The position numbers and the translations under genes are program-made. Below are positions 40,860-43,983 of a stretch of 64,000 nt of DNA, piece by piece; position 1 is the first letter of the stretch, and each line of letters begins with the position of its first letter. Source of the DNA: Candidatus Chloroploca mongolica (GTDB lineage Bacteria; Chloroflexota; Chloroflexia; Chloroflexales; Chloroflexaceae); NCBI RefSeq assembly GCF_004762035.2, contig NZ_SIJK02000003.1, positions 1 to 64,000 of the forward strand. Reading direction: 5' to 3'. Under the pieces are notes generated by a model. The model made no database searches. It was not told the origin of the DNA and saw only the letters and a program-made list of their open reading frames with translations.

Positions 40860-42001
40860 ACCAGACTCACTGCCTGGTTGTCGTCGGGCTCTGCCTGACG
40901 TTCGGGGTGGGGCTCCTTCACCGTACGTACAATGCGGCCCCCGCCAATGATCCGGTCGCCATCATAACAGACGGCTGCCTGTCCAGGGGTGATCGCCTTC
41001 ACGGGGGCCTGTAACCATACCTCCATCCGTCCATCGCCAAGCAGGGTAACTTCAGCCGGGGCCGGTTCGGCATGCGCTCGTACCTGTACATGACAGGTAA
41101 ATGGGGAGGGTGGGGGCACATCAGTGACAAAATTGAGCCGATCCACCAGAAACCGATCCCGCAGGATCGCTTCAGGTGGGCCTACGACCAGCGCATTACG
41201 GGCGACATCCAGTTCGACCACATAGAGCAACTGCCCGCCTCCCAGTCCCAGGCCGCGCCGTTGCCCAATGGTATAGAGGGGTAAACCCTGATGTTGCCCT
41301 ATTTCCCGCCCCATCAGATCCACAATTGGTCCTGGGGTCAGTTGCTCGGGAACCTCGTCGCGCAACAAATTGCGATAATCCCCATTGGGCACAAAACAGA
41401 TATCCTGGCTCTCGGGGCGGTCGGCACTCGCCAGGCCGCGTGCTGCCGCCATTGCACGAACCTCGGTTTTGCTCAACTCACCGAGCGGAAAGAAGAGGTG
41501 CGCCAGATCGCGCTGCCCAAGCATATAGACCATATACGACTGATCTTTATCACGATCAACCGCTCGCGCAAGCGTATAGCGTACACTCCCATCGGGAAGC
41601 TGTTCCTCAACTCGCCGTGCATAGTGGCCCGTCGCCACATACGTAAAACCAAGGGTCTGCGCACGATCAAGCAATGCCCGGAACTTGATCTCGCGGTTAC
41701 ACTCGAGACACGGATTTGGTGTATACCCCTGAGTGTACGCTTGCACGAAATAATCAATCACGTGACGTCGAAATTCACGCTGATAGTTAAAGACATAATA
41801 GGGCACGCCAAGCTGAGCACAGACTCGCCGCGCACTCTCGGTCATCTCCTGGGAACAACAGAGACTCTCGGCCATGCGTTCATCGTCATCGTCCCAGAGA
41901 TGCATCGTGACCCCGACGATCTCGTGGCCCTGTTCGTGGAGCAACGCTGCAGTCAGGGAGCTATCAACGCCGCCACTCATCGCAACCATAATCTTTGCCA
42001 T
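40856..42001 (-). CDS. mnmA: tRNA-specific 2-thiouridylase
   Basis: The enzyme makes 2-thiouridine at wobble position 34 of tRNAs for Lys, Glu and Gln. It is 381 residues long. The PP-loop is AMSGGVDSSL at the N-terminus, the first catalytic cysteine is in NPCLECNR and the second in ESQDICFVPNGDY. The start at ATG 42001 fits the family N-terminus MAKIMVAMSGG. The predicted transcription start falls on or next to that ATG, so the mRNA is probably leaderless. Confidence 0.96.
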   Translation of the reverse strand: MAKIMVAMSGGVDSSLTAALLHEQGHEIVGVTMHLWDDDDERMAESLCCSQEMTESARRVCAQLGVPYYVFNYQREFRRHVIDYFVQAYTQGYTPNPCLECNREIKFRALLDRAQTLGFTYVATGHYARRVEEQLPDGSVRYTLARAVDRDKDQSYMVYMLGQRDLAHLFFPLGELSKTEVRAMAAARGLASADRPESQDICFVPNGDYRNLLRDEVPEQLTPGPIVDLMGREIGQHQGLPLYTIGQRRGLGLGGGQLLYVVELDVARNALVVGPPEAILRDRFLVDRLNFVTDVPPPSPFTCHVQVRAHAEPAPAEVTLLGDGRMEVWLQAPVKAITPGQAAVCYDGDRIIGGGRIVRTVKEPHPERQAEPDDNQAVSLV

Positions 42002-42007
42002 ACGTGT

Positions 42008-42016
42008 ATTATAGCA
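42008..42016 (-). promoter_or_regulatory. Extended -10 promoter giving leaderless mnmA
   Basis: TGCTATAAT reads on the minus strand, and the -10 box ends seven bases before the mnmA ATG. Transcription should start at or within a base or two of the A of the ATG. Confidence 0.65.
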
Positions 42017-42036
42017 AATCTTGCCCGATGAGAAAG

Positions 42037-42087
42037 GTATTGCAGGTAGTTTTGGACGGCAAAGCCGTCCAAAACTACCTGCAATAC
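42037..42087. terminator. 24-bp perfect hairpin upstream of mnmA
   Basis: Arms 42037-42060 and 42064-42087 are perfectly complementary with a 3-base loop. It insulates mnmA from whatever is transcribed upstream on the minus strand, which implies a transcript ending here. Confidence 0.8.
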
Positions 42088-42100
42088 TGTTTATGATCAC

Positions 42101-42334
42101 TCAAGCCGCATTGATACGGCGTGCCTGAGACGGTGTCGCTACGCGCTCCTTGACGATACGCCGTTCTAACCTGACGTTTTGGCGCACAAGTGAAGGTTGC
42201 TTGATAATCGAACCTTGTCGCGTTTGCGTCTGCGCAGCCGCTTTCCAGTACTCTTGTGGTAGAACCCAATGACAGCATGAAAAAAACAGGTCTGGATGCA
42301 CTTCAGGCCCACTATACCAGCGCCGTGGCTTCAT
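42101..42334 (-). CDS. Possible 77-residue protein, unrecognised
   Basis: The frame starts at an ATG with GGAG seven bases upstream and ends 14 bases before the 24-bp terminator stem, which is how a real transcription unit should look. The product is basic and rich in Arg and Gln near the C-terminus (IVKERVATPSQARRINAA). I recognise no family. A 67-residue frame (42075-42278) overlaps it and lacks an SD. Confidence 0.35.
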   Translation of the reverse strand: MKPRRWYSGPEVHPDLFFSCCHWVLPQEYWKAAAQTQTRQGSIIKQPSLVRQNVRLERRIVKERVATPSQARRINAA

Positions 42335-42532
42335 TGAACAACTCCAGCAAACAAGGCTGACCAGCTATAGAACATATAGATACAGACAGGGTTTGAAAGG
42401 CAATTTTATTATATGTAACGGGTCAATAATACAGTACTATCTATAATGGTGTAGTGCGCAATTGTATCCTCAGGTCAAACATTTGTCAATATAATCCTGT
42501 CGCCGCATAGGGCAAACGCATCTTCTTCCGTC

Positions 42533-42638
42533 GCCGTGAACGGCTCAGCTTCTGGCTTGCAAAGGCCACCTGCGTGGCCTGATCGAGCCGGTGAAGACCG
42601 GCTTCCCACGCGGTAAGCCGAGGCGTTTACGCCGACGG
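42533..42638. ncRNA. Candidate structured RNA: ladder of four hairpins
   Basis: Four short perfect stems with four-base loops follow one another: 42533-42544 (4 bp), 42563-42580 (7 bp, AGGCCAC/GTGGCCT), 42586-42603 (7 bp, AGCCGGT/ACCGGCT) and 42618-42638 (4 bp plus an outer 3 bp). It does not match tmRNA, RNase P RNA, 6S or SRP RNA as I know them. The minus-strand stretch around gtgggaagccggtc recalls IS200/IS605 right ends and omega RNA, so a TnpB-element relic is possible. The strand is undetermined. Confidence 0.35.
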
Positions 42639-42724
42639 TATGAGCGGATGGGGGTGATCCTCAGACATGGTGGGGTGCACGAATGCAAGCTGCAAGCGCC
42701 CTACGTTTTTCAGGCTCAGGCATT

Positions 42725-42796
42725 GCTCATACCAGAGCCAGAGAGTTGGCTCTGGTGTGAGCGTTATCTGGCAGCCGAGGGCTGCCAGATAACGCT
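42725..42796. terminator. Tandem hairpins after ftsZ
   Basis: The stem nearest ftsZ is a perfect 17 bp (42760-42776 with 42780-42796, GAG loop). A second stem of 16 bp with one G-U pair (42725-42740 with 42747-42762) overlaps it by three bases. Together they should end the dcw transcript 20 bases after the ftsZ stop. Confidence 0.8.
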
Positions 42797-42816
42797 CTGG
42801 GGAGGAATCGGGAGGA

Positions 42817-43983
42817 TTAGCGATTGCGGTTGCGGTTGCGCAGGAAGGGCGGGATGTCCAGGTCTTCACTATTCGTGAAGTTGGGGGCCACCCGCGGCTG
42901 TTGTGGCTGTTGTTGGGCCGGGGCCGGCTGGGTTGGGCGCTGCTGTGGCTGCTGTTGGGCTGCATTCGGATTCGTTGTGGCCCCAGGGTACGAACGAGTA
43001 CGCTGCACGTTGGGTTTGCTCAGATCAAAGCCGGTTGCAATCAGCGTGACTTTCACTTCGCCAGGTGAGTAGGCTGGATCGATGACGGCACCAACAATGA
43101 TATTGGCATCGGGATCAACTTGCTTGGCGACAATGTCGGCGGCTTCGTAGACCTCGAGAATGCCCAGATCTTCGCCACCGGTGACGTTGAAGAGCACACC
43201 TTTGGCCCCATCAATGCTGACTTCAAGCAGCGGGCTGGCAATCGCCATATTGACGGCATCAATCATGCGGCTATCACCTTTGCCAAAGCCCATTGCCATC
43301 AGCGCTGAACCCTGCTGCGCCATAATGGTCTTGACGTCGGCAAAGTCGACGTTGATCAACCCACGCTGGGTGATCAAGTCACTGATGCCCTGAATACCCT
43401 GGCGCAGCACATTGTCGGCCATCTGGAACGCCTGCGTAAAGGTGGTATTCTTGCTCGCGGTCTGCAACAGGCGGTCGTTGGGGATGACAATCAACGTGTC
43501 AACCACTGGACGCAACTGGTCAATCCCTGCTTCACCGATCTTCCGCCGGTGGTTGCCCTCAAAGGTAAACGGCCGCGTCACCACCCCGACCGTCAGCGCC
43601 CCTAGATCGTGGGCAATGCCCGCAATAATCGGCGATGCGCCCGTCCCTGTGCCGCCGCCCATGCCTGCGGCAACAAAGACCATATCGGCCCCTTTGAGTT
43701 GCTCGTAGACATCTTCCTGGTTCTCTTCCGCAGCTTTCTGCCCGATGACTGGGTTGCCACCACTACCGAGCCCCCTGGTCAATTTGTCGCCAATCCGAAT
43801 CCGCACGGGGGCGAGCGAGTGCATCAACGCCTGGACGTCGGTGTTGACCGTCATGAACTCAACCCCTTGCACGCCGTCGGCAATCATCCGATCAATTGCA
43901 TTCGAACCACCACCACCGACGCCCACGACCTTGATCTGGGCAAAATCCTCGTAGCTAAAGCCCCCACTGTTACGATCAACCAT
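42817..43983 (-). CDS. ftsZ: Cell division protein FtsZ
   Basis: This tubulin-like GTPase forms the division ring. The product from ATG 43983 has 388 residues. The nucleotide site includes [15 protein letters not shown] and the tubulin signature [11 protein letters not shown]7-loop residues appear in [12 protein letters not shown] Pro/Gln-rich linker (about residues 330-370) leads to the conserved C-terminal peptide [10 protein letters not shown], which binds FtsA and other partners. GGGGAG precedes the ATG. It is the last gene of the dcw cluster, 26 bases after ftsA. Confidence 0.97.

Follow-up and report, generated by a model that had tools for sequence, protein, structure and literature searches.

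Between ftsZ and mnmA, a stretch of 64,000 nucleotides from Candidatus Chloroploca mongolica (NCBI RefSeq assembly GCF_004762035.2, contig NZ_SIJK02000003.1, positions 1 to 64,000 of the forward strand; hereafter the window) carries a ladder of four short hairpins. This ladder is probably the core of a mobile non-coding element, a REPIN-like, non-autonomous derivative of a Y1 element that was later carried inside MITEs with ISAs1-type ends. The element in the window is itself an ordinary old insertion, one old copy of a MITE family with such ends. Elsewhere, the two arms of the core, hairpins A-B and C-D, also flank a single-gene, subclass 1.2-like HuH/Y1 transposase and mostly point inward.

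Exactly four perfect stems with 4-nt loops, adding up to 22 stem base pairs, occupy positions 42533-42638 (Table 1), as the preliminary description had reported. Its second claim, a hairpin density far above that of ordinary spacer, also stands: none of 2000 dinucleotide shuffles of the 106-mer matches the 22 stem pairs, and within the window no 106-nt stretch elsewhere scores as high for perfect hairpins with 4-nt loops. Folding of the 226-nt hairpin region gives z = -3.9 on the + strand and -2.65 on the - strand. The flanking genes, ftsZ (Pfam Tubulin and FtsZ_C) and mnmA (tRNA_Me_trans), both lie on the - strand. The four hairpins are real, but the region is not unique spacer: a blastn search of the own genome with 42400-42800 returns 30 matches including itself, and the natural unit is 42508-42703 rather than 42533-42638. 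Phage and plasmid collections searched with 42480-42720 yielded no match.

Table 1. Coordinates of the element between ftsZ and mnmA and of its parts, in positions of the window
Feature	Position	Strand	Remarks
MITE-like element	42508..42703	+	196 bp; dispersed matches start at 42508/42509 and run to 42703
Left terminal inverted repeat	42508..42525	+	3 mismatches to consensus AGGGCGATTGCATCTTC
Right terminal inverted repeat	42686..42703	-	3 mismatches to consensus AGGGCGATTGCATCTTC
Core A-B-C-D	42527..42639	+	model R1, 102.6 bits; the window copy is among the 43 rows from which R1 was built
Hairpin A	42528..42549	+	inner perfect stem 42533-42544; inverted partner of D
Hairpin B	42563..42580	+	loop CTGC
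Hairpin C	42586..42603	+	loop GAAG
Hairpin D	42617..42638	+	inner perfect stem 42622-42633
5' foot of hairpin D	42613-42617		GTAAG, related to the GTAG foot of many copies
Perfect stem 1	42533-42544		4 bp; inside hairpin A
Perfect stem 2	42563-42580		7 bp; hairpin B
Perfect stem 3	42586-42603		7 bp; hairpin C
Perfect stem 4	42622-42633		4 bp; inside hairpin D

The surroundings of the element differ between congeners. The spacer from mnmA to the element (~42045-42495), which holds no supported gene, is 84% identical in the congener G014 and missing in the congener G015. Long near-perfect palindromes adjoin mnmA and ftsZ at 42037-42087 and 42725-42797, respectively; at their places both congeners have other palindromes with a different stem sequence, as if whole hairpins beside these genes had been replaced. 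Adjacency to long terminator-like palindromes could suit a cassette that works as terminator or insulator and that selection maintains between the two genes. Such a cassette is nevertheless highly improbable, since the element is missing at the orthologous place in both congeners examined (G014 and G015), each of which has many copies elsewhere in its genome, and dozens of dispersed copies lie in other settings.

Only small mechanical ORFs overlap the element, and there is no transposase gene inside it. Full copies, aligned by eye, run from TAGGGCGATTGCATCTTC to GAAGATGCAATCGCCCTA over about 195 bp. With up to 2 mismatches, the end pattern occurs at 181 places in the own genome, compared with 2 for the reversed pattern; many of the 181 come from a second MITE type, whose interior has GGGCACCCGCAAGGGGTGCCC palindromes. 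This second type (L034, L035, L040, L041, L044, L048, L059, L060 and others) is the more numerous one, and the ISAs1-like ends are common to both; several assembly contigs break inside it (contig ends L033, L036, L039 and L054). The window copy has degenerate ends and no target duplication left in its flanks (TGTCGCCGCA before, CGTTTTTCAG after), so that its mode of arrival has to be read from sister copies.

CAGGGC ends and 10-bp target duplications are features of the ISAs1 family. Among 31 end pairs, 16 are bordered by a 10-bp duplication with at least 8 of 10 bases matching, 8 of them perfect, while the best of eight shifted controls reaches 3/31. Genes of the ISAs1 family (PF13808) are present in 18 of the 41 genomes of the family, and the ends of related ISAs1 elements read CAGGG..AT.GCAT. 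A scan of 29 loci (L274-L302) for CAGGG ends with a 10-bp duplication of at least 8/10 bases found five in which such ends and a perfect duplication surround an ISAs1 gene. At one of the loci, L278 in the congener G015, an ISAs1-type PF13808 gene lies between the very ends of the window's MITE; its open frame has only 171 aa, so this copy has possibly decayed itself. The only ISAs1 hit in the window genome has different ends but likewise, as read from the sequence, a duplication length of 10 bp. The MITE ends and the 10-bp target duplications in the window's genus are those of ISAs1-family transposons. A 1.4-kb insertion between MITE ends (L013) was rejected as autonomous parent: its ends are different and it is nested in a MITE of the second type. 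The insertion (L013:889-2107) holds a DDE_Tnp_1 gene between AAAGGGTTTCAC ends.

Ends, target duplications, ISAs1 parents and a second palindrome-rich MITE type with ends in common could all be expected of an ordinary ISAs1-derived MITE, whose hairpins would be no more than the foldback interior and whose likeness to Y1 flanks would be incidental or due to palindromic convergence. We consider this unlikely, because a covarying core recurs inside unrelated ends in other genera and because its halves are much more frequent beside related Y1 genes than beside control Y1 genes; both observations are described below.

In the core, which is 112 nt long, two arms of two hairpins each, A-B and C-D, meet tip to tip in inverted orientation. 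In the alignment of 43 copies, 92.5% of the cells of the four hairpins and a short enclosing stem hold a pair, versus 82.2% after shuffling. Two-sided change affects 21 of the 34 pairs, in 115 cells compared with 29.8 in shuffled alignments (0/500) and 14 to 35 in slid controls. In the alignment of half-units the corresponding figures are 139 and 42.7 (0/500). RNAalifold finds a similar set of stems in the core alignment, and an alternative four-way form scores alike; as the core is nearly palindromic, the four-hairpin and the four-way forms are both possible. In the window copy, one pair of hairpin C is T-A, a compensated change peculiar to this copy; almost all others have C-G at that position. 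In 20 of the 43 units the loop of B is the exact complement of that of C, versus 12.5 in shuffled data (p = 0.003), which may reflect kissing or a shared palindromic origin; near-palindromic ancestry explains it equally well.

Such strong compensatory change would also be expected if transposons had spread a family of structured non-coding RNAs and selection acted on the transcripts, and on the given strand of alignment A1 G-T pairs outnumber A-C mismatches (73 versus 29), as RNA wobble would give. However, the excess comes mostly from two column pairs (38 versus 24 without them), and in the half-unit set, which is of mixed orientation, G-T is not above A-C (8 versus 13). As G-T does not clearly exceed A-C, selection on RNA explains the pattern no better than selection on DNA hairpins would. 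Moreover, many R1 copies score similarly on both strands, near palindromy giving no preferred strand, and Rfam has no match at gathering thresholds anywhere in the 64 kb, omega-RNA families included. Candidate Rfam matches below threshold in 42000-43000 were discarded, being mostly hairpin look-alikes such as microRNA models. An RNA family thus seems quite improbable. The preliminary description had envisaged a small RNA and a covariance search of the stems: compensatory change is indeed found, in both the core and the half-unit alignments, but the small RNA is not supported, as the unit is a dispersed mobile repeat, scoring similarly on both strands and without an Rfam match at gathering thresholds. 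Lack of conservation or covariation of the stems in relatives, together with lack of a transcript, had been named as grounds for refutation; R1 finds the core in 43 of the 158 genomes of the class.

These R1 matches are spread over 23 of 78 genera; since at most 24 candidates per genome were scored, copy counts are at least those given. A family-wide search located the core interior in other genera inside different ends. Around the core, at least five distinct inverted end types can be distinguished (39 units read, 47 tested for inverted flanks): AGGGCGATTGCATCTTC in the own genus, TAGTACTACAGTTGTA in G023, GCAATACCGCA.AAGTCACGC in G033, G034 and G036, GGGTGTGACGTAAAGTTCTGCACG in G024 and G025, and GGCGGTTGCAACGT in G003, with TATAGCAATCCTAC as a single case in G002. 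Inverted ends beat all 60 shuffles by at least 6 in 15 of the 47 units; the remaining units have eroded, clustered or otherwise unclear ends. In G064, some twelve four-hairpin units, or parts of them, follow one another in a tandem run (L204:960-2618) with a periodicity of ~115 bp.

A Y1/HuH gene of the window genome (L241:772-1206, at C69) has R1 hits on its upstream and its downstream side; its 144-aa product matches PF01797 and an NCBIfam IS200-type model and has IS200/IS605-type transposases as its nearest solved structures. The association was quantified with R2, a model of one half-unit (A plus B) built from 56 halves, none of them from a Y1 locus. Reversed C-D fits R2 as well; in other words, the core has two inverted arms of one kind. 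R2 occurs within 300 bp on both sides of the related Y1 gene at 16 of 30 loci and on at least one side at 23, compared with 0/27 and 1/27 (a weak hit) at control loci (Fisher, 2.7e-6 for both sides and 1.2e-8 for at least one side). The controls were IS605-type and classic RAYT Y1 loci, 28 of which were run and one (L155) removed as being of the tested kind. Among the nearest half-units at Y1 loci, 33 of 39 point inward, and both halves do so at 11 of the 16 two-sided loci (5/16 not both inward). The arrangement A-B-gene-C-D is clearest at L247, L248, L249, L251, L253, L263, L264, L267, L268, L269 and L271, several of which belong to other families of the class. Seven of the 30 related Y1 loci, including that of G064 (51% identity), have no half-unit within 300 bp, and the window genome's own Y1 locus L244 is crowded, with nearest halves that do not point inward. 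Across the class, a Y1 gene reaching at least 50% identity is present in 11 genomes, in two of them as a partial match; R1 matches are found in 10 of these 11 versus 33 of the 147 others. The outer hairpin has an exact GTAG foot in 23 of the 56 halves and the inner hairpin GAAG in 43. Larger Y1 genes of other kinds have their own repeated hairpin flanks at L160, L162 and L163, e.g., GTAGCACGGGCTTAAGCCTGTGCTCC arrays.

A relic of an IS200/IS605 element with TnpB and omega-RNA had been proposed in the preliminary description, and IS605-type Y1 genes are present in the genome. Taken literally, this explanation is barely credible in view of the control loci, none of which has half-units on both sides, and of the lack of any omega-RNA family at threshold in the window. 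What survives of the proposal is the superfamily: the core matches the flanks of a single-gene Y1/HuH transposase, and this enzyme belongs to the IS200 superfamily.

The Y1 protein carries the motifs DHVH, WQ and YIRNQKEHH; alignment A3 has invariant DH.H, WQ and Q..HH and a nearly invariant Tyr, i.e., Y---Q--HH. A scan of public genomes collected 80 relatives from Chloroflexota, Cyanobacteria, Gemmatimonadota, Armatimonadota, Proteobacteria, Myxococcota and KSB1. Outside Chloroflexota, R2 hits lie on either side of the gene in, for example, L314 (Armatimonadetes), L316 and L318 (Gemmatimonadetes) and L319 (Thermosynechococcus), while Nostoc and others have a similar layout of outer hairpin, linker and inner hairpin in quite different sequence. 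Hairpins with a perfect stem of 6 bp or longer were counted at those 58 of the 80 loci whose flanks were long enough: the mean is 3.69 in the pair of 250-bp windows adjoining the gene versus 0.62 at a distance of 1.35-1.6 kb (Wilcoxon p = 5.5e-10, kinship ignored); they stand on both sides in 41/58 near and 5/58 far cases, kinship again being ignored. In the literature covered, with most subscription journals outside it, there was no report of hairpins at subclass 1.2 genes. One Myxococcaceae relative (L327) lies between very long inverted repeats with an arm score of 204.

The simplest account would take A-B-Y1 gene-C-D as the complete form, from which the gene-less A-B-C-D is derived as an equivalent of a REPIN with four hairpins. 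The Y1 enzyme would recognise A-B-C-D as single-stranded hairpins and mediate mobility of the unit. Related TnpA-REP proteins are described from experiments as cutting single strands folded into hairpins, with the foot sequence as guide (PMC8266576), and by analogy this suggests a mechanism for the present enzyme. In the window's genus, an ISAs1-type DDE transposase is the most likely agent to have spread the composite MITE: cores are numerous in G014, where a Y1 gene of the tested kind is lacking, and in G015, whose only match to it has 26% identity, so that spread in these two does not depend on the Y1 enzyme. One composite copy would then have landed between ftsZ and mnmA and decayed; today it may act as a terminator or mRNA stabiliser, or have no role.

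More broadly, we give about even chances to the idea that the whole subclass 1.2-like group, from Chloroflexota to Cyanobacteria, Gemmatimonadota and others, has a dedicated substrate, namely paired double-hairpin arms which spin off four-hairpin units, and that these units are modular cargo captured repeatedly by unrelated MITEs, one module being spread by two enzyme classes. The interest of the ladder beyond the window copy lies in a repeated double-hairpin partner for a Y1 subclass that had been described without one. It offers a candidate substrate for this subclass of HuH endonucleases and hence a hint at what such enzymes act on. A single palindromic module inside several unrelated miniature transposons also bears on the origin of MITE interiors and on the persistence of such hairpins between genes.

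The closest known counterparts are REPINs or BIMEs with their TnpA-REP (RAYT) enzymes, and the REPtron. As outlined in the reports on these systems, they share with the present case dispersed inverted hairpins, here in part with the 5' GT[AG]G tetranucleotide foot of REPs, repeat copies flanking a single Y1 gene, and non-coding units elsewhere (PMC6006769, PMC3733652, PMC8266576). However, a REPIN arm is described as one hairpin where the present arm has two, the GTAG foot is found here only in part, and the present Y1 has class 1-like motifs (Y---Q--HH) instead of the class 2 Y..NP type given for RAYTs. In the 2018 survey of TnpA-Y1 proteins, subclass 1.2 is given DH[IV]H, WQ and YIKNQKEHH and a median length of 148 aa (PMC6006769). 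The Y1 gene resembles this subclass in motifs and length, and the low copy number is another likeness. Table 1 of the survey places the subclass mainly in Cyanobacteria and Bacteroidetes and lists no REP for it (PMC6006769), whereas the present gene occurs in Chloroflexota and is flanked by double hairpins; set against the "no REP" criterion, these flanks restrict the assignment to "subclass 1.2-like". Class 3, as characterized in the survey, is likewise flanked by atypical secondary structures that occur in many copies, but its NHVH, YV..EQ and CnGA foot are unlike the present Y1 and unit (PMC6006769). The TIRYTs and the double inverted repeats of P. putida also combine Y1 genes with longer compound inverted-repeat flanks that are dispersed as well; compared by description, they differ in their hosts and in pairing degenerated GTAG units with unrelated stem-loops (PMC3733652). 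With IS and MITEs of the ISAs1 family the present element shares the CAGGGC ends, the 10-bp target duplications and, at L278, a gene between the MITE's own ends; it differs from them in its interior, a four-hairpin core that elsewhere is found inside other ends.
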